DNA from: Polynucleobacter sp. AP-Jannik-300A-C4
Lineage (GTDB): Bacteria; Pseudomonadota; Gammaproteobacteria; Burkholderiales; Burkholderiaceae
Assembly (NCBI RefSeq): GCF_018688335.1
Contig: NZ_CP061316.1
Span: forward strand, 1,178,001 to 1,242,000
Length of the DNA stretch: 64,000 nucleotides
Direction: 5' to 3'
The translations under genes were made by a program, and so were the position numbers. The notes beneath the pieces were generated by a model. It did no database searches. It was not told the DNA's origin and saw only the letters and a program-made list of their open reading frames with translations. Of this stretch, positions 19,273-38,736 are shown piece after piece; position 1 is the first letter of the stretch; the number at the start of each line of letters is the position of its first letter.

Positions 19273-19866
19273 TTAAGCAAGCGCAACAAACCAAGTTGCA
19301 TTGTGTGATTGAGCAACCATCAAAAACAACATAGGAATAGAAAGCATCGTATTAAAGCGTGAGACCAACATCGCAACACGCGCAGACTTGGCCTTGACAT
19401 CAGACTCAACCGCCACAATACCCAGGGCTCGTTTCTGAAGTGGCCAAATAATGAACCAAACATTAAACGCCATTACCAAAGCGATCCACATACCTAAACC
19501 AATTGCACGAAATGGCGCTTGCAAAGTAAATGCTTGATGCGCATAGCCATTCAAAACGGCCAAAATCATGCCACTAATAACGGTAAATAAAGCTGCCCAA
19601 CGAAACCAAAACAAAGCTGTTGGGGCGATGACTTTACCAATGGCTGGCTTTTGCTCATCCGGAATTTTAGGCATCGAAGGAATCTGCACAAAATTGAAGT
19701 ACCAAAGCAAACCAACCCACATCACGCCAACCATCACGTGAATCCAGCGGAATAAAAATGGCAACTCAATAGAGCTTAGATTGGCACCTAAGCCCAAAAC
19801 AATTAAAGCAAGGAGAACAAACCCAGCTAAAACTGTGCGGCCTAATGAGGTAAAGATAGATGCCAT
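19273..19866 (-). CDS. PuuD-like membrane protein (no cytochrome c domain)
   Basis: The 197-residue protein has five or so membrane helices. The segment RWIHVMVGVMWVGLLWYFNFVQIPSMP, with a conserved His and the FNFVQ signature, matches the N-terminal membrane domain of urate hydroxylase PuuD (COG3748). PuuD proteins usually carry a C-terminal cytochrome c domain that takes the electrons; none is present here, so urate oxidation cannot be assumed. It lies 33 nt downstream of sodB on the same strand. The role may be as a haem or quinone-linked membrane protein; this is inference. Confidence 0.78.
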   Translation of the reverse strand: MASIFTSLGRTVLAGFVLLALIVLGLGANLSSIELPFLFRWIHVMVGVMWVGLLWYFNFVQIPSMPKIPDEQKPAIGKVIAPTALFWFRWAALFTVISGMILAVLNGYAHQAFTLQAPFRAIGLGMWIALVMAFNVWFIIWPLQKRALGIVAVESDVKAKSARVAMLVSRFNTMLSIPMLFLMVAQSHNATWFVALA

Positions 19867-21512: not shown

Positions 21513-23909
21513 TTAGACCTTGCCAAGAGCCTTCAGAATCTTTTCACAAGTGATAGGCTGATCAAACACCGCAGTATTAAACGGCGCCAAAGCATCATTA
21601 ATCGCATTCTGAACGGCTCCAGGGGCTCCAGCAGTACCAGCTTCACCTGCACCTTTTGCCCCCAACTTAGATGACTGAGTTGGCGTCTCCACGTGGGCTA
21701 CTTCAATATCTGGCATTTCATTGGCCATCGGCACCAAATAATCAGCCATACTGCCATTGCGTAGCAACCCACTATCGTCATAGAGACACTCCTCAAAAAG
21801 AACGCCCCCAATTCCCTGAACAATAGCTCCACGTACCTGCTCATCCACCAGCATAGGATTTAATACGCGACCACAGTCCTCAACTGCCCAATGTTTCAAG
21901 AGCTTTACAAATCCGGTATCAGGATCCACTTCAACATAAGAAGCCTGAACGCCATTAGTAAAGATGAATGGATATTCTTTTTGGGTGTAATGACGTGTAA
22001 CCATCAAATCAGCAGAGAAGCCCACAGGCAAGGTATCCGTACGGAAATAACCAATACGACCAATCTCGCTAAATGGCAGCAATTGCTCACCAGTGGCTTT
22101 ATCTAAAACATGGCCACGTCGAACTGACAACTCTTCAGGCGATCTATTCAAGATGGCGCCAGCAAGCTTCAAGATATTTTCTTGGAGCGCCTGACATGCT
22201 AACAACACTGCCTCACCACCCACACCGGCGCCACGAGAAGCCCAAGTACCACCACCATAAGGTGTGACATCAGTATCGCCAGTAATGATGCGAACATCTT
22301 TAATAGAAAGTCCAACAGCATCAGCAGCAATTTGTGCATAGATACCTTCAGTGCCCTGACCCTGCTCACCAACGCCAATCAATATAGAAACAACTCCACT
22401 AGGATCAAGTCGCGCAGAAGCTCCATCCTGAGAGGCAATACGAGCACCACCCACACCATAGAAGGCTGGACTTGGATTAGTTAACTCAATTAATGTCGCA
22501 AAACCAATTCCGCGATAGATACCCTTTTTGCGCAACTCAGCCTGCTCCTTGCGCAAAGCAGAATAGTCCATCATTTTTTCAATCGTGCGCAAGCATTGCT
22601 CATGCGATAAGACTTCCAATTTAATCCCTGAAATCCCAGAGCATGGATAAGCATCATCAGGAATCACATTGCGTTTACGAAACTCCAATGGATCCATCTT
22701 TAACTTTTGCGCTGCCAAATCTACTAAACCTTCAGTCACAGCACAGGCAATTGGATGCCCCACTCCGCGATATTGGCATGTAGGCGTTTTATTCTGAAAC
22801 ACCACATTCAGCTTGGCTCTGTAATTTTGATGCTTATACGGGCCTCCAACCAAGTTCACCACTTGGTTACCTTCAATTGCACTCGTTCTTGGGAACATAG
22901 AATATGGACCAATCGCAGTGAGATCGTCGATCTCAAAAGCCAATATGTCACCTTCTTTATTGGCTGCAATACGCCCTTTAATGCGGTGCTCACGGGCATG
23001 AATATCACTCGTAAATGATTCGAGTCGATCCGCGACAAATTTAACTGGGCGCTCTAACATCATTGCCAAACCAACTGTTGCAAAATCATCGGGATATGCA
23101 TGAACCTTGATACCAAAAGATCCACCAACGTCCTTGCAGATGACATGTACATCAGACTCAGATAAACCAAACTGACGGCAATATAAATCTTGCATCATGT
23201 GAGGTGCTTGCTGCGAGTGATAAACCGTCAAGCGACGATCGCCTGGGTTGTAGTCAGCAATTTGACAGCGAGGCTCCAAAGTCACGCCGGTATGACGACC
23301 AAAACCAAAGGTAGCTTCCGCAACTACATCTGCGTTTGCAAATACTTCATCAACCTGGCCAACATCCAAGCTGCGGGTAAAACAGAGGTTATCGCCGAGC
23401 TCCGGATGAATTACTGGCGTATCCGCATCCAGAGCTGTTTCCATAGAAACGACAGCAGGCAACTCCTCCCACTCAACCTCAATTAACTGCAAAGCATCTT
23501 CCGCCTGGGCACGTGTTTCGGCAACTACTGCAACTACAGGCTCACCTTGCCAGCAAGCCCTATCAATTGCCAATGCATATTGAGGAGCAGACTTCATGCC
23601 AGCTAGGTGGCCCAAAGTAGCAACCCAAGGCTTGCAAAGCTCTGCCATTTTGGCGCCATCAACTATGGCTAGAACCCCTGGCATCTTGCTTGCTTGTTCA
23701 GTATGAATTTTTCCAATCTTCATATGGGCTACTGGAGAACGCCAATACACCACATGCCCCATTCTGGGCAACTGAATATCGTCCACATAAGTGCCTTGAC
23801 CCTCAATGAGTCGACGCGCCTTATGCCTAGGTTCACTATTACCAATGTAGCGTTGATCATTGGTTACCGGATCAAGCACCAATCCTTTGAGGTCTGCTGG
23901 CTTATTCAT
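21513..23909 (-). CDS. molybdenum hydroxylase large subunit (CoxL/xanthine dehydrogenase family)
   Basis: The 798-residue protein binds the Mo-cytosine dinucleotide cofactor and hydroxylates an activated carbon. Typical features include an N-terminal a/b hammerhead domain (GTYVDDIQLPRMGHVVYWRSP), TLEPRCQIADY, CKDVGGSFGIKVHAYPDD, and the catalytic Glu in GAKGAGEAGTAGAPGAV near the C-terminus. The active-site loop reads QYRGVGHP (residues 379-386). True form I CO dehydrogenase has AYxCSFR, and form II proteins have AYRGAGR, so CO is an unlikely substrate. N-heteroaromatic or related compounds are possible. The next three genes encode the FeS, FAD and CoxG-like partners. Confidence 0.92.
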   Translation of the reverse strand: MNKPADLKGLVLDPVTNDQRYIGNSEPRHKARRLIEGQGTYVDDIQLPRMGHVVYWRSPVAHMKIGKIHTEQASKMPGVLAIVDGAKMAELCKPWVATLGHLAGMKSAPQYALAIDRACWQGEPVVAVVAETRAQAEDALQLIEVEWEELPAVVSMETALDADTPVIHPELGDNLCFTRSLDVGQVDEVFANADVVAEATFGFGRHTGVTLEPRCQIADYNPGDRRLTVYHSQQAPHMMQDLYCRQFGLSESDVHVICKDVGGSFGIKVHAYPDDFATVGLAMMLERPVKFVADRLESFTSDIHAREHRIKGRIAANKEGDILAFEIDDLTAIGPYSMFPRTSAIEGNQVVNLVGGPYKHQNYRAKLNVVFQNKTPTCQYRGVGHPIACAVTEGLVDLAAQKLKMDPLEFRKRNVIPDDAYPCSGISGIKLEVLSHEQCLRTIEKMMDYSALRKEQAELRKKGIYRGIGFATLIELTNPSPAFYGVGGARIASQDGASARLDPSGVVSILIGVGEQGQGTEGIYAQIAADAVGLSIKDVRIITGDTDVTPYGGGTWASRGAGVGGEAVLLACQALQENILKLAGAILNRSPEELSVRRGHVLDKATGEQLLPFSEIGRIGYFRTDTLPVGFSADLMVTRHYTQKEYPFIFTNGVQASYVEVDPDTGFVKLLKHWAVEDCGRVLNPMLVDEQVRGAIVQGIGGVLFEECLYDDSGLLRNGSMADYLVPMANEMPDIEVAHVETPTQSSKLGAKGAGEAGTAGAPGAVQNAINDALAPFNTAVFDQPITCEKILKALGKV

Positions 23910-23929
23910 AATCAGTTTTCCCAGTCTAC

Positions 23930-24439
23930 TTAAGCGAGAGCAACAACAGGTTTAATTTTTTCACCTTTGGCGCGAGCTTCAAGAACGGCCATGATGGCAT
24001 CCACTATGGAATGGTAACCAGTGCAACGGCAATAATTGCCTGAGATCCATTCACGCACTTCTTCGCGCGTGGCTTTGGGTTGTTTTTCAACTAACTCGGC
24101 TGCGGCTAGCAACATTCCAGAAGAACAGAATCCACATTGCATTGCGTTGTGTCGCATAAAGGCTTCTTGCAAGTCTGCTAAGGCACCACTTTTCGTTAAG
24201 CCTTCAATTGTCTCTACAACACATCCATCAGCTTGAACAGCTAAGTACAAGCAACCACGGATGATTTGGCCGTTCACCTTGACGGTACAGGCACCGCAAG
24301 CACCCTGTTCACAGCCCAAGTGGGGGCCCTTCAAATGAAGATCTTCACGCAAAAAATCCACTAAATGGCGACGCGGCTCAATCTCAGCATTGACTTCAGT
24401 ACCATTGACGGTCATCGTAATTTTTTTCTTTAAGCTCAT
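23930..24439 (-). CDS. molybdenum hydroxylase [2Fe-2S] subunit (CoxS-like)
   Basis: The 169-residue small subunit carries two [2Fe-2S] clusters that pass electrons from the Mo site to FAD. The plant-type cluster is bound by Cys43, Cys48, Cys51 and Cys63 (GCEQGACGACTV, RGC) and the second, helical cluster by Cys102, Cys105, Cys137 and Cys139 (QCGFCSSG, YCRCTGYHSI). All eight ligands are present. It lies between the large and FAD subunit genes with gaps of 20 and 42 nt, so the operon order is G-M-S-L in the direction of transcription. Length is normal for the family. Confidence 0.95.
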   Translation of the reverse strand: MSLKKKITMTVNGTEVNAEIEPRRHLVDFLREDLHLKGPHLGCEQGACGACTVKVNGQIIRGCLYLAVQADGCVVETIEGLTKSGALADLQEAFMRHNAMQCGFCSSGMLLAAAELVEKQPKATREEVREWISGNYCRCTGYHSIVDAIMAVLEARAKGEKIKPVVALA

Positions 24440-24481
24440 CTCAATCTCCGAACTCGATTTATCTTTTATTAAATTTTTTTA

Positions 24482-25336
24482 TTAAGCAATTAAATGCTTT
24501 AAGCCGCGCTCTAATAAAACACCAATTAAATGTTGTTTTGTTTCTGCACTATTAGTAATGTCTGCAATCGCCTCAATCTCTGCCCTTGCAGCAGTAACTG
24601 CGCTGGCAATTAACTCATCAGTCGCCGGCTTGCCGTCAACTATGGACTGAGCCTTCTTTGCCATTACCGGCGTAGCCCCAACAGAAAAGAAAGTAAAAGC
24701 GCAATCGCTCAGAATATCTCCCGCCTTATTTGCAACCAAGGCTGCTCCTGCAACCGCATAGTCTCCGTGACGACGTGCTAGCTCATGAAAATAAAAAACT
24801 TGATTACTGTTTGCAACTGGGATTTCAGTTGCCACCAGAATTTCATTAGGCTCTAAGGAGGTGGTGTACAGATCAATGAAAAAGTCTTGCGCTGAAACGC
24901 GACGCTCACCATTAGGACCTGCAATTAACATTGTTGCATTGAGTGCCAAGCTACAGGCCGGCCATTCAGCTGCTGGATCTCCGTAAGCCAAGGATCCTCC
25001 CCAGGTGCCTAGATTGCGAATCGCTCTGTGTGCGATATGAGGAACGGCGGCTTTTAGTAATGGTGCATGTTGCGCAATCAATTTTGAGTCTTCAATCTCA
25101 GTATGAGTAACTAAGGCCCCAATACGTAATTGATCGCCAGTTACAGCAATCCCTTTAAGTTCATGTAGATCAGTTATGTCAATCAAAATGCTAGGCTCAG
25201 AGAGGCGCAGATTGAGCGTAGCCAAGAGAGTCTGGCCACCAGCAATCAAACGGGCATCCTCACCAGCTTCAGCCAGCAAAGCTAGGGCCTCGCTGAGGAC
25301 CTTCGGTTTTGCATAATCAAATGCTGCTGCTTTCAT
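24482..25336 (-). CDS. molybdenum hydroxylase FAD subunit (CoxM-like)
   Basis: The 284-residue subunit binds FAD in the VAO/PCMH-like fold and hands electrons to the final acceptor. Visible motifs are IAGGQTLLATLNLRL near residue 31 (the AGGQSLLP equivalent), IRNLGTWGGSLAYGDPAAEWPA near residue 105 (the TxGG motif and flavin contact) and an ELARRHGDYAVAGAAL segment near 187 that closes the second FAD loop. No domain is missing. It is the second gene of the operon, after the CoxG-like gene, with a 40-nt gap to it. Confidence 0.94.
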   Translation of the reverse strand: MKAAAFDYAKPKVLSEALALLAEAGEDARLIAGGQTLLATLNLRLSEPSILIDITDLHELKGIAVTGDQLRIGALVTHTEIEDSKLIAQHAPLLKAAVPHIAHRAIRNLGTWGGSLAYGDPAAEWPACSLALNATMLIAGPNGERRVSAQDFFIDLYTTSLEPNEILVATEIPVANSNQVFYFHELARRHGDYAVAGAALVANKAGDILSDCAFTFFSVGATPVMAKKAQSIVDGKPATDELIASAVTAARAEIEAIADITNSAETKQHLIGVLLERGLKHLIA

Positions 25337-25376
25337 TGCGTCTCCTCCACAACTTTTATATTTATCTTGCCAAGCC

Positions 25377-25853
25377 TTATTCGGCCTGTGCGTCCGGCTC
25401 TAGGGGTAGCACTTCACCACCCAATTCTGTTGCAAATCGCAGAAAAAAATCATCTGCAATCTTTTTAGCAGAAGCGCTAATTAAACGCCCGCCAATTTGT
25501 CCTAACTTCCCCCCAATGGAGGCTTCAGTTGTATACGTAATCAAGGTACCACCTTCAGCAGCCTTTAACTCAACCCGTGAGCGGCCTTTAGCAAAACCTG
25601 CGGCGCCTCCCGACCCCTCAAATGTCATTGAACAGGATTGATCAGGAACAACATCGCTCAACAGAAGCTTTCCCGCGAATCTAGCCCTCACGGGGCCAAT
25701 CTTGAACATCACCTTGGCATGAATCTCCTCTGGAGAGATCCGGCTAATTTCTTCACAGCCGGGAATGGACTTTGCAAGGACGTCAATATCATTCAAGCCC
25801 TTCCATACATCTGGGATTGGAGCCGCAATGAGTTGCTCGCCATTTAGTTCCAT
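25377..25853 (-). CDS. CoxG-family SRPBCC protein
   Basis: The 158-residue protein starts with MELNGEQLIAAPIPDVWKGLNDIDVLAKSIPGCEEI and continues with MTFEGSGGAAGFAKGRSRVEL and a C-terminal KIADDFFLRFATEL, all typical of carbon-monoxide-dehydrogenase subunit G (START/SRPBCC fold). CoxG helps attach Mo hydroxylases to the membrane or links them to quinone; in other operons its role is open. It is the first gene of the Mo-hydroxylase operon, divergent from a TetR gene across 105 bp. A ribosome site (CAAGGAGATGTA) lies directly before the ATG. Confidence 0.9.
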   Translation of the reverse strand: MELNGEQLIAAPIPDVWKGLNDIDVLAKSIPGCEEISRISPEEIHAKVMFKIGPVRARFAGKLLLSDVVPDQSCSMTFEGSGGAAGFAKGRSRVELKAAEGGTLITYTTEASIGGKLGQIGGRLISASAKKIADDFFLRFATELGGEVLPLEPDAQAE

Positions 25854-25895
25854 TACATCTCCTTGGGGTTTGTACGAATAGAGTCTTATCTACCA

Positions 25896-25908
25896 ATTGT
25901 TCAACAAT
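25896..25908. promoter_or_regulatory. candidate TetR operator palindrome
   Basis: ATTGTT-C-AACAAT is a perfect 13-bp dyad in the middle of the 105-bp gap between the divergent CoxG-like and TetR genes. A second dyad, TTTGG (25925-25929) with CCAAA (25939-25943), lies closer to the TetR start. Local palindromes next to a divergent TetR gene are usual operator sites; binding is not shown. Confidence 0.45.
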
Positions 25909-25958
25909 GTACCATTATTTAACTTTTGGTCAATAAGGCCAAATTCGGATAAACCCCG

Positions 25959-26669
25959 ATGACAATGAGTTTCGATCGAGACCGCAGCACAAGAAACAGC
26001 GTCGCTTCAGAAATGACTGTCTCTGAGGTTCCTGCTCGTCGCAGAATGAGCACTGCAGACCGTAAACGGCAAATACTCGATCGCGCAATTCAGTATTTTG
26101 CTAAGCATGGGATTGATGGGCAACTCAGAAACTTAACTAAAGGACTGGGCGTTACCCATACCCTGCTCTATCACTACTTTCCCACAAAAGACGCCTTAAT
26201 TAAGGCCGTCTACGAGGATGTCTTTGAATCACGCTGGAAGCCTGAATGGGAGCAGTTGCTAGACAATAAGGATCTTTCGCCAGAAGAGAAATTCAATGCT
26301 TTTTATATTGACTACTCAAATACAGTTCTCACCTACGATTTCGTGCGTATCTTGATTTTCTCTGGCTTAAGCGATCACTCGATTAGCGACCGATTCTTTG
26401 AGCTACTGCGGGATCGCCTATTGCCCCGTCTTATTCGTGAAACCCGCAAACACTGTGGCCGCACCACTCGTAGCAAGCCTTCGCAGCGGGAATTAGAATT
26501 TTTAATGGGCCTGCATGGTGGTATTTTTTACATCGGAATGCGCCGCTGGATTTATGGGCAAGCCATCTACGACTCCGGCAACCCCAATACTGAGCAAGAA
26601 ATCATTCAAGATCGGATTAGCTCTTATCTCAGTTCAGCAAAAGCTTTATTTACTACTGGTAAAAAATAA
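25959..26669 (+). CDS. TetR/AcrR-family transcriptional regulator
   Basis: The 236-residue protein has a TetR-type DNA-binding domain from about residue 33 (RKRQILDRAIQYFAKHGIDG, then LTKGLGVTHTLLYHYFPTKDALIKAVYEDVF) and a helical ligand-binding domain. The first 30 residues are polar and lack family similarity, so an internal start (for example Met30, RRMSTADRK) is possible. It is divergent from the Mo-hydroxylase operon and immediately upstream of VOC and FAD-monooxygenase genes (1-nt gap), so it likely senses the pathway substrate or intermediate and controls both sides. The ligand is unknown. Confidence 0.9.
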   Translation: MTMSFDRDRSTRNSVASEMTVSEVPARRRMSTADRKRQILDRAIQYFAKHGIDGQLRNLTKGLGVTHTLLYHYFPTKDALIKAVYEDVFESRWKPEWEQLLDNKDLSPEEKFNAFYIDYSNTVLTYDFVRILIFSGLSDHSISDRFFELLRDRLLPRLIRETRKHCGRTTRSKPSQRELEFLMGLHGGIFYIGMRRWIYGQAIYDSGNPNTEQEIIQDRISSYLSSAKALFTTGKK

Positions 26670-26670
26670 T

Positions 26671-27129
26671 ATGACAAACCTCAGCCTAAATCATTTTTCT
26701 ATCCGCAGCTTAGAGATTGAAAAGACCACTCAGTTTTATAGTGAGGTGCTTGGACTAACGGTTGGACCACGCCCAGAGTTTCCATTTCCAGGGGTCTGGC
26801 TTTACAACGGTGATGAAAACGATTGGGCCAATGCAGTACTACATTTAATTGCGATTGATAAAAATGATCCCAACGGTCTCAAGCAATACCTTGGCGAGCG
26901 TGATCCAAGCTCACTCTATGGCTCGGGAGCTGTGGATCACATTGCATTCTTTGCTAAAGGTTTGGAAGCTAAGCTTGCTCAACTAGATAAATTGGGCGTT
27001 CCTTGCAGACAACGTACTGTGCCTGTTTTACAGCTGCACCAACTTTTTTTGGACGATCCTAACGGCATCGTGATTGAATTAAATTACCCTGCTGCTGAAA
27101 AAGCAGCCTTAGATGCTAAGGCTACATAA
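26671..27129 (+). CDS. VOC-fold (glyoxalase/extradiol dioxygenase-like) protein
   Basis: The 152-residue protein starts LNHFSIRSLEIEKTTQFYSEVLGL, a VOC half-fold, and has metal-ligand candidates His8, a His in VLHLIAID, the His in GAVDHIAFFAKG and the Glu in GIVIELNYP, in the usual order. VOC proteins are metal-dependent lyases, isomerases or ring-cleaving dioxygenases. I chose ATG 26671, one base after the TetR stop codon, because the upstream extension of this frame overlaps tetR. Context (TetR, FAD monooxygenase, Mo hydroxylase) suggests a ring-modifying or ring-opening step. The reaction is not known. Confidence 0.88.
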   Translation: MTNLSLNHFSIRSLEIEKTTQFYSEVLGLTVGPRPEFPFPGVWLYNGDENDWANAVLHLIAIDKNDPNGLKQYLGERDPSSLYGSGAVDHIAFFAKGLEAKLAQLDKLGVPCRQRTVPVLQLHQLFLDDPNGIVIELNYPAAEKAALDAKAT

Positions 27130-27135
27130 GCAAAG

Positions 27136-28374
27136 ATGGCAAAAATTCTCGTCATCGGCGGATCGCTTGGAGGCTTATTTGCAGCCAATATATTGCTGCG
27201 CCAAGGTCACGATGTCACCTTATTAGAAAAAGCGATTGGCTCCTTAGATGGTCGGGGTGCGGGGATCGTGACACATGATGCACTTGCAGATGCTTTGCGT
27301 GAAGCGGGTATTGCTGTTGATGACAGTCTAGGAGTTGCCGTATCGAAGCGAGTTACCTTAGGTGTCGATGGTGAGAGCCTGGGCGAAATGCCGCTTCCAC
27401 AGATTCTGACTTCATGGAGTCGCCTGTATCACCTGCTTAAGGAGAATTTTCCGAACGAGCGTTATTTACAGGGCAAGAATGTAAAAACTGTTAGTCAAGA
27501 TTCCAATACCGTTCAAGTAGTTTGTGAGGATGGCAGTAGTTATCAGGCTGAGCTACTAATAGCATCCGATGGCATTCGTTCCGCAGTGAGGGCTCAGGTA
27601 GCACCAAGTATTCAGCCTGAATATGCGGGATATATTGCATGGCGTGGTGTATGCGATGAAAGTCATTTATCGAATTACACCCTAGACACACTCTTTAATT
27701 ATTTTGGCTTTTGCCTTCCCAACGGCGAACAGATGCTGGGCTACCCAGTCGCAGGCCCTGGAAATGACACTCGACCAGGTAAGCGCCGTTATAACTTTGT
27801 ATGGTATCGCCCTGCATCCGAAGATGATGAGCTCGTAAAACTATTGACTGATGCGGATGGTCATCACTACCCAACTGGTATTCCACCACTAAAGGTATCG
27901 TGGAAGCATATTGCTGAAATGCGCAGTATTGCTCGGAAAATCCTGGCGCCTCAATATGCAGAAATTCTAGAGAAAACTGCTTCACCATTTTTACAGGCGA
28001 TATACGATGTTCGTTCAGAGCAAATTGTCTTTGACAGAATTGCCTTAATGGGTGATGCAGCTTTTGTTGGTCGTCCTCATGTTGGGATGGGCGTTACTAA
28101 AGCAGGTGATGAGGCGATGGTGATTGCGCGTCACATCGCCCAATTGGGCGCAACCCCTGCAGCACTGGCAGCTTATAGCAGGGAACGACTTCAGTTGGGT
28201 CAACAGGTTGTTGCAAGAGCCCAATATTTAGGGCGCTATATGCAAGCACAAGGTAGTAAAGGTAGCAGGGACGGCAACAGCCTTCGCAGAAACGCAGATA
28301 CGGTGATGGCTGAGACAGCAATTGATATCAGCACCTTACTGGCACAAGGAAAAGCAGTTCCAGAGTCGTATTAA
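27136..28374 (+). CDS. FAD-dependent aromatic monooxygenase (DHPH-like)
   Basis: The 412-residue protein has the GxGxxG-type FAD motif IGGSLGGLFAANILLRQG, a DG motif ELLIASDGIRSAVRAQ near residue 140 and the GD motif LMGDAAFVGRPHVGMGVTKAGDEA near residue 306. The middle part, EYAGYIAWRGVCDES and YPVAGPGNDTRPGKRRYNFVWYRPA, resembles 2,6-dihydroxypyridine 3-monooxygenase of nicotine breakdown. It should insert one O atom ortho to a ring hydroxyl using NAD(P)H and O2. It follows the VOC gene by 6 nt. The similarity suggests a hydroxypyridine-like or hydroxyaromatic substrate, by inference only. Confidence 0.9.
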   Translation: MAKILVIGGSLGGLFAANILLRQGHDVTLLEKAIGSLDGRGAGIVTHDALADALREAGIAVDDSLGVAVSKRVTLGVDGESLGEMPLPQILTSWSRLYHLLKENFPNERYLQGKNVKTVSQDSNTVQVVCEDGSSYQAELLIASDGIRSAVRAQVAPSIQPEYAGYIAWRGVCDESHLSNYTLDTLFNYFGFCLPNGEQMLGYPVAGPGNDTRPGKRRYNFVWYRPASEDDELVKLLTDADGHHYPTGIPPLKVSWKHIAEMRSIARKILAPQYAEILEKTASPFLQAIYDVRSEQIVFDRIALMGDAAFVGRPHVGMGVTKAGDEAMVIARHIAQLGATPAALAAYSRERLQLGQQVVARAQYLGRYMQAQGSKGSRDGNSLRRNADTVMAETAIDISTLLAQGKAVPESY

Positions 28375-28476
28375 AAAACTAGATGTAGATTTTCGCATTA
28401 ACAGAAGCATTCAGTTAAGATTTACGAAGCAAAAAGTATTCTTATTAATTAACTGTTTTAAATGGAGGAGACAACC

Positions 28477-29712
28477 ATGAAACAAAAAGTAACGAATCAA
28501 ACCAGAAGAAAAATGTTAATCGGTGGAGCTGCTGCAGCAAGCACTCCACTTTGGATGAACATGGCAAGCGCCCAATCTGAAACAATTAAGATTGGCTTCC
28601 CCACCCCATTAACAGGCCCCTTCTCTGCCGAAGCACAGGATCAGGTAAGGGCTGCTGAGCTAGCTATTAAAGAATTTAATGATGCAGGTGGCTTTAACGG
28701 ACGCAAAGCAGAGTTACTAGTAAGAGATACAAAACTCAATGCAGGTGAAGCCGCTACACGTACTCTTGAGTTGATTGAGAAGGATAAAGTGGGTTTTGTT
28801 GTGGGCTCACTTTCTGCTGCAACCCAGCTATCTATCAATGCCGTCTGCAAAGAGCGTAAGGTACTTTTTAACTCTATCAGCCAATCTGATGCGATTAACG
28901 AAGCAAAAGACTGGAGTGTCTACACATTCCACGAGGCATTAAATCCAACTATGACAGCAGGTGCAGTAGCTCGCTACTCCATTCCTCGCTTTGGTAAGAA
29001 GATTGTATTTTTGACTGCCGATTATGCTTATGGCCATGAAATGGTGCGCGCATTTGAGCGTGCCGGCAAGGAGATGGGAGCAACAACATTGGCGGATATC
29101 CGCCACCCACTTGGTACATCAGATTATTCAGCTTTTTTACCGCGGATTAAAGCATTGAATCCTGATATCTTGGTCTTATGCAACTTCGGCCGAGATTTAG
29201 TAAATTCTGCGAAACAATGTACGGATTTTGGCTTGAAATCCAGCATGAAAATTGTGGCACCTGTTTTGCTATATACATCCCGCATTGCAGGTGGTGCAGA
29301 AGCATTTGAAGGTATTGCTGGCGGAACCTCCTACTACTGGGGTCTAGAAGATAGAATTCCTCAGGCCAAGATTTTTAATGATGCCTACAGAAAGGCATAT
29401 AACGGCTCGGTTCCATCCGATTACGGTGCACTTGGATATGCAGGTGTGAAAAGCGTTTTAGCCTCAATCAAGATTGCCAAGTCTACTGAGACCATGAAAG
29501 TAATCAGCGCAATGGAGAATCTCAAGTACGACTGGTATAAAGGCCCTGAGTACTACCGCAAATGCGATCATCAGGCAGTTCAATCCGTGATCATTATTGA
29601 GTCTAAATCAAAGAATATGAAGGATAAGTATGACGTCTTTAATATTCTGACAATTGAACCAACTACCGAGAAAAATATGCGTAGTTGTGCGGAGTTGGGC
29701 CACAAGGCTTAA
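28477..29712 (+). CDS. branched-chain-type ABC transporter substrate-binding protein (Tat signal)
   Basis: The protein (about 411 residues) is a type I periplasmic binding protein of the LivK group, starting after export with IKIGFPTPLTGPFSAEAQDQVRAAELAIKEFNDAGG split across strand 1 and helix 1. A twin-arginine signal (TRRKMLIGGAAAAS, then MASAQS) indicates folded export by Tat. I chose ATG 28477 because GGAGGAG lies just upstream; the ATG at 28462 is part of that leader. It is followed by two hairpins and then livHMGF. The ligand is probably an aromatic or carboxylic acid linked to this catabolic cluster, not necessarily an amino acid. Confidence 0.93.
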   Translation: MKQKVTNQTRRKMLIGGAAAASTPLWMNMASAQSETIKIGFPTPLTGPFSAEAQDQVRAAELAIKEFNDAGGFNGRKAELLVRDTKLNAGEAATRTLELIEKDKVGFVVGSLSAATQLSINAVCKERKVLFNSISQSDAINEAKDWSVYTFHEALNPTMTAGAVARYSIPRFGKKIVFLTADYAYGHEMVRAFERAGKEMGATTLADIRHPLGTSDYSAFLPRIKALNPDILVLCNFGRDLVNSAKQCTDFGLKSSMKIVAPVLLYTSRIAGGAEAFEGIAGGTSYYWGLEDRIPQAKIFNDAYRKAYNGSVPSDYGALGYAGVKSVLASIKIAKSTETMKVISAMENLKYDWYKGPEYYRKCDHQAVQSVIIIESKSKNMKDKYDVFNILTIEPTTEKNMRSCAELGHKA

Positions 29713-29720
29713 ATCTGAAA

Positions 29721-29786
29721 TTCAGGGTGAATCATCTGATTTACCCTGAACCCCTCCCCCAACGCACAGGCTGAGGGGGAGTTTTT
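29721..29786 (+). terminator. tandem hairpins between the binding-protein gene and livH
   Basis: The first hairpin has arms TTCAGGGT and ACCCTGAA (29721-29750) with an additional AAT/ATT pairing. The second has CTCCCCC (29754-29760) with GGGGGAG (29775-29781) followed by five T residues. The second is a good intrinsic terminator, so it probably lets only part of the transcripts reach livHMGF, giving more binding protein than permease. Confidence 0.82.
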
Positions 29787-29798
29787 CTGAGTATATAT

Positions 29799-30683
29799 AT
29801 GACCGGCCTTACATTTGAACTTCTATGCATGCAACTACTGACAGGAATTGCTCTGGGTAGTATTTATGCACTTCTTGCCCTGGGCTTATGCCTTATTTTT
29901 GGCATGCTCAATGTCGTTAATTTTGCCCACGGCGCCTTCTTCATGGTTGGCGCGTTTTTGGGTGTCTATTTTCTTGGCGTAACAGGTAATTTTTGGTTTA
30001 GTTTAATTCTGACGCCAATTACTACCGGAGTCCTTGGATTGCTGACCGAGCGATTCTTAGTCCGCCCACTATACGGACGTGGGATTGACTATCCACTCCT
30101 ACTGACTTTTGGATTGTCGTATGTCTTAATTGAAGCAGTTCGTGTCACTTTTGGCATTGAAGGCCTACCGTCTGTTACCCCTGATGGACTGAAAGGCTCT
30201 CTCGACGTCGGCATCGGCTTCTTTCCCAAGTATCGACTTTTCCTGATTGCCGCTACAGCTGTCATTATTTTTGCAGTTTGGTTTTTCATTCAAAAAACCC
30301 GATACGGCCTAATTATCAAAGCTGGTGCCGCTGACCAAGAGATCGTCAAAGTGCTTGGTGTAGATATCGCCAAAGTATGGCTCATGGTGTTTGGACTTGG
30401 TTGCGCAATTGCCGGCCTCTCCGGAATATTAGCCTCACCCACCCGCTCTGTTAATCCAGAAATGGGTATTCCAATTTTGGCGGAGTCGTTTGTTGTCACA
30501 GTAGTTGGCGGCATGGGCTCACCAGTGGGGGCTGTTGTTGCTGGTTTATTAGTTGGCGTGGTCTACAGCATGACTTCCCTGTTCTTCCCTGACCTATCAG
30601 AACTTTCTATCTTTGTATTGATGGCGGTAGTGCTCTTAATTCGACCACAAGGTTTATTTGGTAAAGCGGGGGCAATGGGTTAA
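29799..30683 (+). CDS. livH: branched-chain-type ABC permease LivH
   Basis: The 294-residue inner-membrane permease has about eight helices and the LivH signatures LTGIALGSIYALLALGLCLIFGMLNVVNFAHGAFFMVGAF split over helices 1-2, GLSYVLIEAVR, and GIPILAESFVVTVVGGMGSPVGAVVAGLLVG in the coupling region. It forms the translocation path with LivM. The start ATG 29799 has only a weak ribosome site and follows the terminator-like hairpin by 12 nt. It is first of four transport genes in one operon. Confidence 0.94.
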   Translation: MTGLTFELLCMQLLTGIALGSIYALLALGLCLIFGMLNVVNFAHGAFFMVGAFLGVYFLGVTGNFWFSLILTPITTGVLGLLTERFLVRPLYGRGIDYPLLLTFGLSYVLIEAVRVTFGIEGLPSVTPDGLKGSLDVGIGFFPKYRLFLIAATAVIIFAVWFFIQKTRYGLIIKAGAADQEIVKVLGVDIAKVWLMVFGLGCAIAGLSGILASPTRSVNPEMGIPILAESFVVTVVGGMGSPVGAVVAGLLVGVVYSMTSLFFPDLSELSIFVLMAVVLLIRPQGLFGKAGAMG

Positions 30684-30698
30684 TCCCCCTGAATACTT

Positions 30699-31658
30699 AT
30701 GAAATCATTCTTCCAACTCATTGCACGTCATCGCGTGCTAGCAAGCAGTCTCTTCTTGATGGTCTTTCCTTTCATCATGCCGTACGAGGCCCTTGCGATC
30801 AACATCTTGATCTTTGGCTTATTTGCCATGGGCTTCAATCTCCTATTTGGTTATATGGGCCTCCTATCATTTGGTCATGCAGCCTTCCTCGGTATTGGTA
30901 GCTACCTCACTGGCATCGGCATCGTCCACTACGGAATGTCCTGGGGGACTGCAATTCTGGTGGGTGTGATCGGTGCAGCTATCGGAGGACTCATTATGGG
31001 TTTTCTAGCAATTCGTACTAGAGGCATCTACTTCTCCATGGTTACGCTGGCATTAGGCCAAATTGTTTTTTATGGTTTTTATAAGGCTGAGAGTTTGACT
31101 GGTGGTGAGAATGGCTTAAGAGGCGTTCGTGTTGATTCCTTCAACATTTTTGGAATCCCAGTTGACTTCCTCAATCCATTAGTGAAGTACTACATCATTC
31201 TCTTTTTTGTAGTCATTGCCATCTGGCTCATCTCCCGGATCCTAAGCTCGCCTCTTGGCGCAGTAATGGAGGCGATTCGTGAGAATGAGAAGCGTGCAGC
31301 TGCATGCGGATTTGATGTAGCTCGCACAAAACTGTTGGTATTTGTATTGTCTGCTGCCATCTGTGGTTTAGCAGGATCATTGCGTGCCCTGCATCTTTCA
31401 ATTGTTCCAATAGATTCACTTCACTATCTCCAATCCGGGCAGGCTGTCATGATGAGCATCTTGGGAGGTATGGGCACTTTCTTTGGTCCATTTATTGGTG
31501 CTGCAGTCATGCTGTATCTAGAGGATGTAGTTACCACCCTTACTAAACATTGGATGGCCGTCATTGGGCTCATCTTTATGTTCTTTGTACTATTCTTCCC
31601 CAAGGGGATCTGGGGAACTATCTTGAGCAAGCTAAACCTCAATCAGGATTCGAAATAA
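30699..31658 (+). CDS. livM: branched-chain-type ABC permease LivM
   Basis: The 319-residue permease has about nine membrane helices and typical LivM motifs: GFNLLFGYMGLLSFGHAAFLGIGSYL, FLAIRTRGIYFSMVTLALGQIVFY and the coupling segment EAIRENEKRAAACGFDVARTKLLVFVLSA. It pairs with LivH to form the pore. It starts 15 nt after livH, and its TAA stop overlaps the livG ATG (TAATG), a sign of coupled translation. The substrate is defined by the binding protein at 28477-29712. Confidence 0.95.
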   Translation: MKSFFQLIARHRVLASSLFLMVFPFIMPYEALAINILIFGLFAMGFNLLFGYMGLLSFGHAAFLGIGSYLTGIGIVHYGMSWGTAILVGVIGAAIGGLIMGFLAIRTRGIYFSMVTLALGQIVFYGFYKAESLTGGENGLRGVRVDSFNIFGIPVDFLNPLVKYYIILFFVVIAIWLISRILSSPLGAVMEAIRENEKRAAACGFDVARTKLLVFVLSAAICGLAGSLRALHLSIVPIDSLHYLQSGQAVMMSILGGMGTFFGPFIGAAVMLYLEDVVTTLTKHWMAVIGLIFMFFVLFFPKGIWGTILSKLNLNQDSK

Positions 31659-32413
31659 TGAGTAGCTCAAACCAAACCCCCATCCTTGAGGCTCGTAATG
31701 TGAGTAAGAGCTTTGGGAAATTCAAAGCCTTGCAGAATGTATCGACCACCTTTATGCCTGGGTCGCTTACAGCAATCATTGGGCCAAATGGTGCTGGCAA
31801 GAGTACATTCTTTAACGTCCTAAGTGGCGCCTTCCCTCCTTCGAGCGGGCAAATCTTGTTTAATGGCAAAGATATTACCGGCATGCAGCAATACGAATTT
31901 GCCCGCATTGGTATCTCTAAGAGTTTTCAAATTACCAACGTGTTTAAGCAGTTAACGGTTCATGAAAATGTCCGCGTTGCTGCACAAATGGAAACAGCAC
32001 GCTACAACTTTTTGCGTAATGCCCAAAGTTACCCGGGGCCAATTGAACTTGCAGACCAGCTTTTGCGTCGCGTGAACTTAGAGCATCTAAGAAATAAAAA
32101 AACGGGTGACTTAGCTCACGGTCAGCAACGTGCTTTAGAGATTGCTATGGCCCTTGCCTGCAACCCGAGTCTTCTATTATTGGATGAACCAACCGCGGGC
32201 ATGTCTCCTGAAGAAACGCTCGTAATGATGGATCTCATTCGCACACTAGCAGATGAGAGAACGGTTATTTTAGTTGAGCATAAGATGAAACTCATCATGG
32301 GTTTATGTAAGCGAATCATTGTTTTACATCATGGTGAGTTTTTAGCTGAAGGCACTCCAGAAGAAATACAAAATAATGCAGAGGTACGACGCGTGTACCT
32401 AGGCCAAGGTTAA
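31658..32413 (+). CDS. livG: branched-chain-type ABC ATPase LivG
   Basis: The 251-residue ATPase has Walker A GPNGAGKST (near residue 44), Q-loop ISKSFQITNVFKQLTV, signature LAHGQQRALEIAMALA and Walker B LLLLDEPTAGMSP. It powers uptake together with LivF. I chose ATG 31658, overlapping the livM stop codon; longer in-frame versions would run into livM. Length is normal for LivG. Confidence 0.95.
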   Translation: MSSSNQTPILEARNVSKSFGKFKALQNVSTTFMPGSLTAIIGPNGAGKSTFFNVLSGAFPPSSGQILFNGKDITGMQQYEFARIGISKSFQITNVFKQLTVHENVRVAAQMETARYNFLRNAQSYPGPIELADQLLRRVNLEHLRNKKTGDLAHGQQRALEIAMALACNPSLLLLDEPTAGMSPEETLVMMDLIRTLADERTVILVEHKMKLIMGLCKRIIVLHHGEFLAEGTPEEIQNNAEVRRVYLGQG

Positions 32414-32437
32414 CGAAGGTTCTTCGAAGGTTCTTAT

Positions 32438-33142
32438 ATGTTGCGTGTAGAAAATTTAAATGCCTGGTACGACCGTAGCCATGTTCTGCAAGGCGTATCT
32501 TTGGAAGTGAACAAAGGGGAAATCGTTACCTTAATGGGTCGCAATGGTGCCGGCAAAACTACTACCCTTCGGTCTTTAATGGGTCTTCTTTCAAAAAGAG
32601 AAGGCAAAGCCTTGATTGATGGTAGCTCCTTCTTGGATCTGGCGGCGCATGAGCGCTACCACTTAGGCTTGGCTTACGTTCCAGAAGATAGACGGATTGT
32701 TCCAGGATTAACTGTTAAAGAAAATTTAGAGTTGGGCGTTATTGCCAAGAAAAGCCGAGGAGATATGAGTGCCTTGGTCGATGAGATCGCTGAAACCTTT
32801 CCACGTCTTAAGGAGAGATTGCATCAAGATGGAACATCGATGTCGGGTGGCGAGCAGCAAATGCTAGCAATCGCACGAGCGATGATTGCTAAGCCTAAAG
32901 TCATACTGCTAGATGAGCCATCAGAGGGAATCATGCCAGTCTTGGTAGAGGAAATGTTTGAGCTGTTTGCCAAACTCAAACAACAGGGTTTAACCATTCT
33001 ATTGGTTGAGCAAAATGTTCAACAAGCACTCAAGATTTCTGACCGAGCCTATATTCTTGATCAAGGTGAAATTGTTTTCCATGACACCGCTCAGAATCTC
33101 CTTAATAACGACGAGGTTCAACAAAAGTATTGCGCTGTTTAA
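32438..33142 (+). CDS. livF: branched-chain-type ABC ATPase LivF
   Basis: The 234-residue ATPase has Walker A GRNGAGKTT near residue 34, signature MSGGEQQMLAIARAM and Walker B VILLDEPSEGIMP, the LivF form with SEG after Walker B. It follows livG by 24 nt; a short direct repeat (GAAGGTTCTTC region, 32415-32434) fills the gap. It completes a full high-affinity importer (binding protein, two permeases, two ATPases). The gene ends 15 bases from a convergent YqaA-like gene, with no terminator seen between them. Confidence 0.95.
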   Translation: MLRVENLNAWYDRSHVLQGVSLEVNKGEIVTLMGRNGAGKTTTLRSLMGLLSKREGKALIDGSSFLDLAAHERYHLGLAYVPEDRRIVPGLTVKENLELGVIAKKSRGDMSALVDEIAETFPRLKERLHQDGTSMSGGEQQMLAIARAMIAKPKVILLDEPSEGIMPVLVEEMFELFAKLKQQGLTILLVEQNVQQALKISDRAYILDQGEIVFHDTAQNLLNNDEVQQKYCAV

Positions 33143-33157
33143 TGCTTTTGCAGCCTC

Positions 33158-33661
33158 TTAGATAATTCGAATCCAATGCCCCAATTGGTGCCAAAAGCTG
33201 GTAGGCACTAAAGTTAAAAGCCAGGTCATCGTGAGATAACGCAGCAGTTTGCCGATGCCCATATATATTAGACAGGGTAACCAAGGCAATCTAAGCCACC
33301 CGGCGGCTAAACAAAGGGGGTCACCAAACCCTGGCAGCCAAGACAGCAGGAGCATCTTAGGGCCCCGCTCTTCCAACCAGCGTTGCATTCGGTTATTAGA
33401 AGGGCCCTTCAAGGACTCAAAGCTATTTCGACTCAATAGCCCAAGCCACCAATCCAGCATACCCCCCAAAGTGTTACCAATTGTGGCAACAATAATGGCA
33501 GCCCAATATAAGTGCGGATTAACCGAAACATACCCAAACAAGATGGGCTCAGAACCTACAGGCAATAAAGTTGCAGAAATAAAGGCACTAATAAATACGG
33601 CTGGCAAACCAACCGATGGCATACCAAAGAAATCAAAGAACTGACCCAGCATTTGCTCCAT
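33158..33661 (-). CDS. YqaA/DedA-like (VTT fold) membrane protein
   Basis: The protein has the VTT/SNARE-like core AVFISAFISATLLPVGSEPILFGYV, TIGNTLGGMLDWWLGLLSR and LLLSWLPGFGDPLCLAAGWLRLPWL, as in YqaA proteins related to DedA lipid scramblases and flippases. I chose ATG 33661 (167 residues) because family members begin shortly before the first helix; ATG 33730 or TTG 33739 would add 23-26 residues and cannot be excluded. It sits inverted between the ABC importer and the acyl-CoA dehydrogenase gene, so it may be unrelated to the catabolic cluster. Confidence 0.8.
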   Translation of the reverse strand: MEQMLGQFFDFFGMPSVGLPAVFISAFISATLLPVGSEPILFGYVSVNPHLYWAAIIVATIGNTLGGMLDWWLGLLSRNSFESLKGPSNNRMQRWLEERGPKMLLLSWLPGFGDPLCLAAGWLRLPWLPCLIYMGIGKLLRYLTMTWLLTLVPTSFWHQLGHWIRII

Positions 33662-33849
33662 TAGGCAAGCGCTCCGAGTCGGATGGAAATCAAGGATTTG
33701 GTCATACCCCAAGTATGCCCCAAGCCCCATCACACTCAATAATCAAGTAGACAAAGGCAAAATTTTGGATCGCCCACAATCTTGAATTCTTGCTTAAACT
33801 ATGGGAATTCTCATATTTCATCAATTCTTAAATTTTTATAGATAGCTAA

Positions 33850-35019
33850 ATGAACCACCCCATTCCTAAGCCAGATCAATATCAAGACATGCGTGAAGCC
33901 TTGCGCGACCTTTGCGGCAGTTTTGACTCCGCATACTGGCAAAAAGTAGATCATGAACGCGCCTACCCCGAAGCATTTGTAGACGCCATGGCACAAGCTG
34001 GTTGGTTAGCAGCATTAATTCCGGAAGAATATGGTGGCTCCGGCTTAGGTTTGGCAGAAGCCTCCGTCATCATGGAAGAAATTAATTTATCAGGCGGTAA
34101 TGCGGGCTCATGTCATGGCCAGATGTACAACATGGGTACCTTACTACGCCATGGCTCAGATGCTCAAAAGAAGCTCTACCTCCCTAAGATTGCTACCGGA
34201 GAATTACGCCTCCAAAGCATGGCTGTAACGGAGCCGACTACAGGCACCGATACCACCAAACTCAAAACTACCGCCGTTAAAAAGGGTGACAAGTATGTAG
34301 TGAATGGTCAGAAGGTTTGGATCTCTCGGATTCAGCATTCCGATTTAATGATTCTTTTAGCGCGCACTACTCCGCTTGCAGAGGTAAAGAAAAAATCAGA
34401 AGGCATGTCAATATTTATCGTCAATCTCAAGGATGCGATTGGCAAAGGCATGGAGATTCAACCCATTGCCAATATGGTGAACCATGAAACGAATGAAGTC
34501 TTCTTTGATAACTTGGAAATTCCCGCCGAGAATTTAATTGGTGAAGAAGGCCAAGGGTTTAAATATATTCTTGACGGCCTCAATGCGGAGCGTGTCCTCA
34601 TTGCTGCCGAGTGCATTGGAGATGCTTATTGGTTTGTAGATAAGGCTCGTCGCTACGCAAATGAACGCGTAGTATTTGATCGCCCGATTGGCAAGAACCA
34701 AGGGATTCAGTTTCCGATCGCAGATTCTTATATCGAAACAGAAGCCGCAAATTTGATGCGCTTTAAAGCGTGTGAATTATTTGATGCTAAACAAGCCTGC
34801 GGTGCCGAATCCAATATGGCCAAGTACTTAGCTGCCAAAGCCTCTTGGGAAGCCGCTAACGTTTGTCTGCAAACTCATGGTGGCTTTGGATTTGCCAATG
34901 AATATGATGTCGAGCGCAAGTTTAGAGAAACCCGCCTCTACCAGGTCGCGCCAATCTCCACAAACCTGATCTACTCCTATATAGCTGAGCATGTTTTAGG
35001 ACTCCCCCGCTCTTTCTAA
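33850..35019 (+). CDS. acyl-CoA dehydrogenase family protein
   Basis: The 389-residue flavoprotein has the full fold: N-terminal helices, LQSMAVTEPTTGTDTTKLKTTAVKKG FAD and substrate region split around residue 118, VWISRIQHSDLMI, and C-terminal CLQTHGGFGFANEYDVERKFRETRLYQVAPIS. Where medium-chain enzymes have the catalytic Glu (IYEGT), this protein has LYQVAP, so the usual base is missing. A Glu in NAERVLIAAE (near residue 246) lies where isovaleryl-CoA dehydrogenase has its base and may serve instead. It is followed 45 nt later by a CoA-transferase gene, suggesting CoA-ester oxidation in the same pathway. Confidence 0.92.
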   Translation: MNHPIPKPDQYQDMREALRDLCGSFDSAYWQKVDHERAYPEAFVDAMAQAGWLAALIPEEYGGSGLGLAEASVIMEEINLSGGNAGSCHGQMYNMGTLLRHGSDAQKKLYLPKIATGELRLQSMAVTEPTTGTDTTKLKTTAVKKGDKYVVNGQKVWISRIQHSDLMILLARTTPLAEVKKKSEGMSIFIVNLKDAIGKGMEIQPIANMVNHETNEVFFDNLEIPAENLIGEEGQGFKYILDGLNAERVLIAAECIGDAYWFVDKARRYANERVVFDRPIGKNQGIQFPIADSYIETEAANLMRFKACELFDAKQACGAESNMAKYLAAKASWEAANVCLQTHGGFGFANEYDVERKFRETRLYQVAPISTNLIYSYIAEHVLGLPRSF

Positions 35020-35064
35020 TTCTGTAGACCCGTTAATTAATTTAGTGTTTGGATAAGCAATTTC

Positions 35065-36249
35065 ATGAGTATTCGCCCTCTAGACGGCATCACTGTAGTT
35101 TCTTTGGAGCATGCCATTGCTGCTCCGTTTTGTACGCGTCAATTGGCTGACTTGGGAGCTCGTGTGATTAAGGTCGAGCGACCAGGCGCCGGAGACTTTG
35201 CCCGCGCCTATGATGAGCGAGTCAATGGCATGTCATCTCATTTCACTTGGGTAAATCGCTCTAAAGAAAGTCTCACACTGGATCTCAAACAGGAGTCTGC
35301 ATTAGCAGCGCTAAAGACGCTGCTCAAGACAGCAGATGTACTGGTGCAAAACTTAGCCCCTGGTGCCGCAGCACGCATGGGATTGACCGCAGAACTATTG
35401 CAAAAAGACAATCCCGGCCTAATTTTGTGCGATATCTCAGGCTATGGAAATAATGGGCCTTATCGTGACAAGAAAGCCTATGACTTACTCATTCAGAGTG
35501 AGGCTGGATTCTTGTCGGTTACGGGTACGCCAGAGACACCCAGTAAAGCAGGTAACTCCATTGCAGACATTGCAGCAGGCATGTATGCCTACACCAATAT
35601 TTTGGCCGCACTACTTCAAAGAGGTAAGACTGGCAAGGGTTCTTGTATTGACGTTTCTATGCTGGAGTCTTTGGGTGAATGGATGAGCTACCCACTCTAT
35701 TACGCCTATGAGGGAGCTACGCCCCCTCCTCGCAATGGCGCATCCCATGCCACGATTTATCCCTACGGGCCATTTAAGGCGGGTGATGGCGGTACCGTCA
35801 TGCTTGGCCTACAGAATGATCGTGAGTGGGTTTTATTCTGTGAGGTCGTACTTGAGAATCAAGCACTGGCTAAAGATGAGCGCTTTGATAAAAACTTCAA
35901 GCGTAATGAAAAGCGAGATGAACTCCTCTCCATTATTGATGCTTGTTTTAGCAAACTGACTACCCAGCAAGTGATTGCAAAGCTAGATGAAGCGCAAATC
36001 GCTAATGCCCGCCTAAATGATATGCAGGGTTTATGGAATCACGATCAACTCAAAGCAAGAGATCGCTGGGTACAAGTGGGATCACCTGTAGGCCCTATTC
36101 CAGCAATGCTTCCCCCGGGCAGTAATGACAGTTTTGACTACCGCATGGATGCGATACCTGCAGTAGGTCAACATACAGAAGCTATTCTGACTGAGCTTGG
36201 TATTGCTGCTGATGAGATTGCAAAGATGCGGAGTCAGGGCTCTATTTAA
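35065..36249 (+). CDS. class III (CaiB/BaiF) CoA-transferase
   Basis: The 394-residue enzyme moves CoA between acids. It shows the family start LDGITVVSLEHAIAAPFCTRQLADLGARVIKVERPGAGDFAR in two segments, VLVQNLAPGAAARMGL, GYGNNGPYRDKKAYDLLIQSEAG and the catalytic Asp in NSIADIAAGMYAY (near residue 170). It probably activates the acid that the neighbouring acyl-CoA dehydrogenase oxidises. Its stop overlaps by 4 bases the stop of the convergent cardiolipin synthase gene. The acid substrate and CoA donor are unknown. Confidence 0.93.
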   Translation: MSIRPLDGITVVSLEHAIAAPFCTRQLADLGARVIKVERPGAGDFARAYDERVNGMSSHFTWVNRSKESLTLDLKQESALAALKTLLKTADVLVQNLAPGAAARMGLTAELLQKDNPGLILCDISGYGNNGPYRDKKAYDLLIQSEAGFLSVTGTPETPSKAGNSIADIAAGMYAYTNILAALLQRGKTGKGSCIDVSMLESLGEWMSYPLYYAYEGATPPPRNGASHATIYPYGPFKAGDGGTVMLGLQNDREWVLFCEVVLENQALAKDERFDKNFKRNEKRDELLSIIDACFSKLTTQQVIAKLDEAQIANARLNDMQGLWNHDQLKARDRWVQVGSPVGPIPAMLPPGSNDSFDYRMDAIPAVGQHTEAILTELGIAADEIAKMRSQGSI

Positions 36250-38670: not shown

Positions 38671-38736
38671 GAGTTAAAAAAGGGGGAATTGTTTGCATTT
38701 ATGCCATTTTGCCATCCCCTTGCTAGAATCAAGCCC

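Follow-up and report, generated by a model that had tools for sequence, protein, structure and literature searches.

What does a molybdenum (Mo) hydroxylase operon do beside a flavin monooxygenase and a complete importer, and where does the unit that holds them end? The question is raised by a 64,000-base stretch of Polynucleobacter sp. AP-Jannik-300A-C4 (contig NZ_CP061316.1, positions 1,178,001 to 1,242,000; hereafter the window), which lies in a single-contig genome of 1,998,164 bases. Positions 21513–33142 of the window hold a unit of 12 genes, comprising a CoxG/M/S/L operon, a TetR-family regulator, a VOC protein, a monooxygenase of the 2,6-dihydroxypyridine hydroxylase (DHPH) type and a Liv-type importer. 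This unit is almost certainly a discrete, co-inherited cassette. We consider it rather likely to be a switched, two-armed catabolic cassette for a pyridine-type N-heteroaromatic compound, a reading in which we infer the substrate class, the order of the steps, the VOC reaction and the binding by TetR. The probable role of the cassette is the uptake and degradation of a nitrogen-containing ring compound by common lake bacteria.

The evidence that these genes travel together comes from 101 genomes of the same genus, in which we counted the monooxygenase at 58% identity or more and the Mo hydroxylase large subunit (L) at 75% or more, leaving uncounted the distant-only matches of six genomes in the first tally and one in the second. 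The monooxygenase is present in 52/101 genomes and L in 51/101; the two occur together in 50, one without the other in three (the monooxygenase alone in G052 and G086, L alone in G092) and neither in 48. This clustering exceeds chance, and the joint occurrence bears out the dedicated, co-inherited unit of Mo hydroxylase, DHPH-type monooxygenase and own importer that an earlier note had proposed from the letters alone. A scan of a species-level genome collection returned at least 597 stretches, at least 578 of them encoding monooxygenase relatives, and we studied the best 80 loci. Genes at these loci were counted with tblastn, since gene calling in the high-GC loci is imperfect, and each denominator takes in the loci in which the contig extends to where the gene should lie. 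The cassette core is conserved across Burkholderiales, with L in 61/68, the 2Fe-2S subunit (S) in 61/68, the FAD subunit (M) in 63/71, TetR in 57/73, the binding protein in 65/78 and LivF in 59/67 loci. Among the matches listed, the closest named loci are from Polynucleobacter, with monooxygenases up to 94% identical, and other named carriers are isolates of Roseateles, Lacisediminimonas and Ramlibacter and drafts of Polaromonas, Rhodoferax, Hylemonella and Rubrivivax; the genus set and the named-locus set overlap in some genomes.

The earlier note had drawn one catabolic island reaching to 36249, in which an acyl-CoA dehydrogenase (ACAD) and a CaiB/BaiF CoA-transferase finish the products as CoA esters. 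Both genes do adjoin the cassette in this stretch, as they do in most of the close Polynucleobacter loci (ACAD 21/23, CaiB 18/20), but they stay in place where the cassette is missing. In the genus sample, ACAD is found in 82/101 genomes (48/52 monooxygenase-positive and 34/49 negative) and CaiB in 85/101 (49/52 and 36/49). We fetched ten loci from the 36 monooxygenase-negative genomes that have CaiB, and in 10/10 the genes SDR-VTT-ACAD-CaiB-Cls follow one another without any cassette gene, giving the conserved flanks and empty site of a flexible (replacement-type) island. Conversely, the 51 loci with a monooxygenase at most 65% identical, a group that includes two Polynucleobacter by name (L078 and L085), have none of these neighbours (SDR 0/37, VTT 0/40, ACAD 0/37, CaiB 0/36, Cls 0/36), and the cassette-positive locus L032 (genome G076) has no ACAD between VTT and CaiB, with a 96% identical ACAD elsewhere in its genome. 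The VTT gene lies on the opposite strand between the importer and the CoA genes, and the operator motif described below is found at neither ACAD nor CaiB in the window or the whole genome. Because the empty sites keep ACAD and CaiB and the gene counts show independence, the two genes are not part of the cassette but mere neighbours of it. The genus-wide co-occurrence suggested for the whole set therefore stands for L and the monooxygenase and fails for ACAD and CaiB, which scatter independently; the cassette ends at about 33142, and a pathway finishing through CoA esters by way of these two enzymes is very improbable.

At the empty sites, the aligned ends of SDR and VTT are 49–66 bases apart in eight loci and 247 in L149, while L148 gives 255 bases by an incomplete VTT alignment. 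The gap in L149 (about 9931–10200, reverse-complement orientation) matches both cassette ends, with the LivF end still in frame, and that genome therefore lost the cassette by deletion. Parsimony on an SDR/CaiB/Cls tree of 24 loci gives eight changes between presence and absence, on a tree with several weakly supported nodes that recombination may distort. The cassette is gained and lost as one block between the SDR and VTT genes. In the draft locus L053, only VOC and the monooxygenase are kept between SDR and VTT, which may reflect a real deletion or an effect of the assembly. Two observations concern the flanks themselves: the ACAD match in L147 (genome G023) falls in two overlapping pieces, possibly through a frameshift, and a second CaiB-family gene (30–32% identity) lies between VTT and ACAD in L040 (14474–15679), L043 (14543–15736), L044, L111 and L118.

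The cassette also carries a regulatory signature of its own. Comparison of the divergent promoter across loci gave a putative operator motif of 23 bases from 34 unique sites, and the window has two perfect, oppositely oriented copies between the arms, against a chance expectation of 0.02. No further site within 3 mismatches occurs elsewhere in the window, and the whole 2.0-Mb genome adds to the pair only one site with 3 mismatches; this lone site lies near genes read as sugar-phosphate enzymes and was taken as chance, so that a wider regulon was rejected. By virtue of its position, TetR is the presumptive binder of the two putative operators.

The gene content and positions given in the earlier note hold, each named gene being present with the family claimed, although its list left the VTT gene unmentioned (Table 1). 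L, S, M and CoxG lie on the minus strand, and TetR, VOC, the monooxygenase, the binding protein and four further Liv-type genes on the plus strand, where 1 base separates TetR from VOC, 6 separate VOC from the monooxygenase and 87 separate the monooxygenase from the binding protein. The list of open reading frames begins the LivG-like ATPase too early, at 31550, since orthologues of this ATPase have 251–252 residues.

Table 1. Cassette genes, putative operators and right-hand neighbours, in window coordinates.
Feature	Position	Strand	Evidence
L, Mo hydroxylase large subunit (molybdenum cofactor, MoCo), xanthine-oxidase family	21513..23909	-	Pfam MoCoBD_1/2, Ald_Xan_dh_C
S, 2Fe-2S subunit	23930..24439	-	Fer2_2, Fer2
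M, FAD subunit	24482..25336	-	FAD_binding_5, CO_deh_flav_C
CoxG-like accessory protein	25377..25853	-	PF06240, 90 bits
Putative operator site 1, divergent promoter	25887..25909	+	TATYKACCAANNGTTMAAYAATG, 0 mismatches
Putative operator site 2, divergent promoter	25913..25935	-	0 mismatches
TetR-family regulator	25959..26669	+	PF00440
Single-domain VOC protein, directly 5' of monooxygenase	26671..27129	+	VOC-fold matches of AlphaFold2 (AF2) model
DHPH-type FAD monooxygenase	27136..28374	+	NF005566/PRK07236, 461.1 bits
Periplasmic binding protein (Peripla_BP_6)	28462..29712	+	263 bits
LivH-like permease	29799..30683	+	PF02653
LivM-like permease	30699..31658	+	PF02653
LivG-like ATPase	31658..32413	+	ABC_tran, BCA_ABC_TP_C; orthologue lengths
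LivF-like ATPase, right end of cassette	32438..33142	+	ABC_tran; 3' end persists in L149 scar
VTT membrane gene, between importer and CoA genes	33158..33739	-	
ACAD	33850..35019	+	
CaiB/BaiF CoA-transferase	35065..36249	+	

The first arm encodes a hydroxylase of the xanthine-oxidase family, with MoCo, 2Fe-2S and FAD subunits and a GxGExG glutamate loop, which we take to be a motif of that family. In L, the motif TCQYRGVGHP is found in 80/80 and GAKGAGEAG in 76/76 covered copies, some of which represent the same genome fetched twice. The best PDB match of L is quinoline 2-oxidoreductase (461 bits), followed by the CoxL of a carbon monoxide (CO) dehydrogenase (444 bits), with 6-hydroxypseudooxynicotine dehydrogenase at 333 bits. 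That second match, the CoxG-M-S-L gene set and the Pfam match of CoxG would suit an operon for an aerobic CO dehydrogenase (form II), with the adjoining genes unrelated to it. However, L scores only 452 and 477 bits with the NCBIfam CoxL models (equivalog or exception level), far from their cut-offs of 991 and 950, and keeps close company with a monooxygenase and an importer, neither of which is needed for CO oxidation. Despite the rank of CoxL among the PDB matches, we rejected the CO dehydrogenase identity on these cut-offs and regard it as hardly tenable. The CoxG-like gene is present in 50/73 loci that reach its place; because it is missing in the other 23/73, it is less likely to be a ring opener, and its Polyketide_cyc2 match of 23.5 bits is under the 27.4 cut-off. 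An XdhC-type maturation factor was considered as a cassette marker and dropped as uninformative, because it occurs in 77/101 genus genomes with or without the cassette.

The monooxygenase of the second arm is, to judge by its sequence, specifically DHPH-like. It passes the NCBIfam model NF005566 (PRK07236), which is a subfamily-level assignment, with 461.1 bits against a cut-off of 333, and its profile gives 226 bits for DHPH in the PDB, 104 bits for the next structure and 93 bits for 6-hydroxynicotinate 3-monooxygenase. The RPH motif that follows GDA aligns with that of DHPH, and R313, P314 and H315 are invariant in 39 sequences.

Directly upstream, the VOC protein accompanies the monooxygenase in 77/78 loci, and this constancy makes it the obvious candidate for acting on the monooxygenase product. 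Its AF2 model (pLDDT 90) gives VOC-fold matches in a fold search, and H8, H58, H90 and E136 are invariant in 40 sequences. Three of these residues, H8, H90 and E136, align with the metal positions of Escherichia coli GlxI, as we presume its ligands to be numbered, and supply the 2-His-1-Glu set expected of a type I extradiol ring-cleaving dioxygenase in this fold, a set common to VOC enzymes other than dioxygenases too. The placement of H58 differs between two sequence alignments, lying 3 residues past the epimerase glutamate in one and on the GlxI glutamate position in the other. Assignment of a reaction by fold was dropped, since the scores do not set dioxygenases apart from other VOC enzymes. 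Tentatively, the VOC enzyme may open the ring. A bolder proposal, to which we give a low probability, is that an unusual 3-His-1-Glu metal site (H8, H58, H90, E136) allows it to open a trihydroxypyridine-type product of its DHPH-family partner, the two enzymes forming a portable hydroxylate-and-open module that stands behind different Mo hydroxylases across Burkholderiales.

The VOC-monooxygenase pair is found in other company as well. In L100, L122 and L125 it lies beside other genes, those of L122 being a split Mo hydroxylase, an amidohydrolase, a luciferase-like monooxygenase and a flavin reductase. On three Burkholderia/Paraburkholderia plasmids, VOC and the monooxygenase (47–51% identity) precede genes for a symporter and an amidohydrolase, after which 2/3 have a second DHPH-type monooxygenase and 2/3 an alkene reductase; in 3/3, a cytochrome c/2Fe-2S/MoCo hydroxylase, which we take to be NicAB-like by its make-up, follows the pair. 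On a Cupriavidus plasmid the pair stands with a Liv-type importer, with no Mo hydroxylase within the stretch shown. Separately, in L072, an Alcaligenaceae draft, a gene read as isocitrate-lyase/phosphoenolpyruvate (PEP)-mutase-like directly precedes VOC.

In ten loci, some from the same genome, the gene after the monooxygenase lies on the opposite strand and encodes a hydrolase of the polysaccharide-deacetylase family (293-residue type); wherever the contig continues, a different Liv set adjoins this gene. Among solved structures the hydrolase is nearest to 1z7a and PuuE, and its homologues (E <= 1e-20) occur in 12/101 genus genomes, all monooxygenase-positive. Such a PuuE-allantoinase-like enzyme beside an importer could point to a substrate among the purines, pyrimidines, hydantoins and other cyclic ureides or imides, with a ring that this hydrolase opens in some relatives, and the monooxygenase is also related, more weakly, to the HpxO urate hydroxylase (94 bits, cut-off 500). 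However, no other solved structure comes nearly as close to the monooxygenase as DHPH, the hydrolase reaches only 116 bits against the PuuE cut-off of 425, and it has no match in the window's genome or in 40/52 monooxygenase-positive genomes. We consider a purine or ureide substrate rather unlikely, and rejected the hydrolase as a required partner on its presence in only 12/101 genomes and its lack of a match in the genome of the window. That genome has 3 matches to the amidase family and 1 to the isochorismatase family, none of them within the window. A Mo hydroxylase followed by a DHPH-type monooxygenase, together with the recurring neighbour enzymes of N-heterocycle type, leads us to favour an N-heteroaromatic substrate, with somewhat better than even confidence.

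The Liv-type importer reported earlier is complete and in place, but its proteins fall below the NCBIfam cut-offs for both leucine and urea systems: the scores are 60 bits for LivK (cut-off 477), 86 for UrtA (493), 195 for UrtB (250), 240 for UrtD (304) and 238 for UrtE (286). The names leucine transporter and urea transporter were therefore rejected. The importer also bears on whether the cassette feeds its host or is a detoxification or modification module that removes a toxic aromatic compound. Detoxification would agree with the patchy presence of the cassette (52/101 genus genomes) and with the want of a complete downstream route within it; against this, an importer of the same type, counted by its binding protein, is found in 65/78 loci. 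Feeding is therefore favoured, and detoxification appears improbable.

A catabolic cassette for an N-heteroaromatic compound could work as follows. The Liv-type importer would take up the compound, and the CoxG-associated Mo hydroxylase would add a hydroxyl group, probably on the carbon adjoining the ring nitrogen. The DHPH-type flavin monooxygenase could then hydroxylate the resulting di-oxo or dihydroxy ring to a trihydroxy-type product, on which the VOC protein may act by ring opening or isomerisation, and later steps would fall to enzymes encoded elsewhere in the genome. TetR would bind both operators between the arms and be released by the substrate or an intermediate.

Several observations weigh against this scheme. 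Seven loci reach the place of L and do not have it (L100, L117, L125 and L130, judged by reading, and L053, L069 and L122, examined separately), and 12 more of the 80 end before that place; the VOC-monooxygenase pair can therefore work with other upstream enzymes. The PDB ranking of L is indecisive, CoxL standing close behind quinoline 2-oxidoreductase, and the best NCBIfam model for L is glyceraldehyde dehydrogenase, at 526 bits below a cut-off of 790. In the fold search with the VOC model, dioxygenases do not stand out. The cassette genes include no amide or imide hydrolase, and the PuuE-like hydrolase is without a match at E <= 1e-20 in this genome. Finally, VOC and the monooxygenase are less firmly linked further off: on an Agrobacterium plasmid the monooxygenase (48%) adjoins a 135-residue protein without Pfam or NCBIfam match, and the stretch shown of a Vibrio plasmid contains a VOC relative (42%) but no monooxygenase.

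Elsewhere in the window, positions 38536–40135 hold permease and ATPase genes that by reading resemble a tungstate/molybdate (Tup-type) importer, with formate dehydrogenase-like genes, also by reading, beside them from 40419 on. A membrane protein at 19273–19866 partially matches the urate oxidase N-terminal domain (59 bits) and is also found near the SDR gene in cassette-negative loci.

The cassette is frequent in freshwater bacteria, to judge by the at least 578 monooxygenase relatives in one genome scan, and its substrate should be common in lakes. In a large protein set (E <= 0.001), 7111 matches to VOC and 7979 to the monooxygenase were found among 8000 scored candidates, figures that include distant family members. 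The operator, the empty site in close relatives and the constant VOC partner make the question of the substrate testable. A description of the cassette was not found in the literature searched, including the available parts of PMC9304392, PMC6122326, PMC3308952 and PMC5644125; an earlier mention in the AEM (Applied and Environmental Microbiology) 2017 paper on Polynucleobacter asymbioticus islands is possible.

Family searches of the cassette genes agree with the earlier statement that the set has no gene-for-gene counterpart in the nicotine, nicotinate or CO pathways. One close comparison is nicotine breakdown by KdhLMS and DHPH (Arthrobacter pAO1), where a Mo hydroxylase is likewise followed by a DHPH-family FAD monooxygenase. 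The cassette differs in having its own Liv-type importer and VOC partner, no 2,6-dihydroxypseudooxynicotine (ketone) hydrolase or amine oxidases among its genes, and an L closer to quinoline 2-oxidoreductase than to 6-hydroxypseudooxynicotine dehydrogenase. DHPH converts 2,6-dihydroxypyridine to 2,3,6-trihydroxypyridine, whose catabolism is called unclear in the part of a nicotine review available to us, with maleamate, maleate and fumarate proposed (PMC6122326), and the cassette may bear on its fate. In the fungal nicotinate pathway (HxnS/X/V/T/W/M/N), a Mo hydroxylase and FAD monooxygenases lead to 2,3,6-trihydroxypyridine, followed by an OYE-type alkene reductase and a cyclic imidase; the same source, as available in part, mentions that in Rhodococcus and Arthrobacter a 'polyketide cyclase' carries out a C-N opening of this compound (PMC9304392). 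If the VOC enzyme does open such rings, its route would be a second way of doing so. As in the Hxn route, an alkene reductase or a polysaccharide-deacetylase-type hydrolase stands beside some bacterial VOC-monooxygenase pairs; unlike it, these systems belong to other organisms and enzyme subfamilies, the window's cassette has no reductase or imidase, and it has a VOC enzyme, which the available part of the Hxn paper does not mention (PMC9304392). The NicAB/NicC nicotinate pathway also uses a Mo hydroxylase and a FAD monooxygenase on an N-heterocycle, whereas L here is of the three-subunit CoxLMS type and no deformylase or amidase family is found among the cassette genes. As a genomic element, the cassette is close in behaviour to the replacement genomic islands of P. 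asymbioticus, whose paper, in the text available, does not contain the words dehydrogenase, monooxygenase, aromatic or carbon monoxide (PMC5644125). There, whole blocks are swapped between conserved flanks with recombination hotspots (PMC5644125, available part), and the cassette is likewise swapped as a block between conserved flanks.

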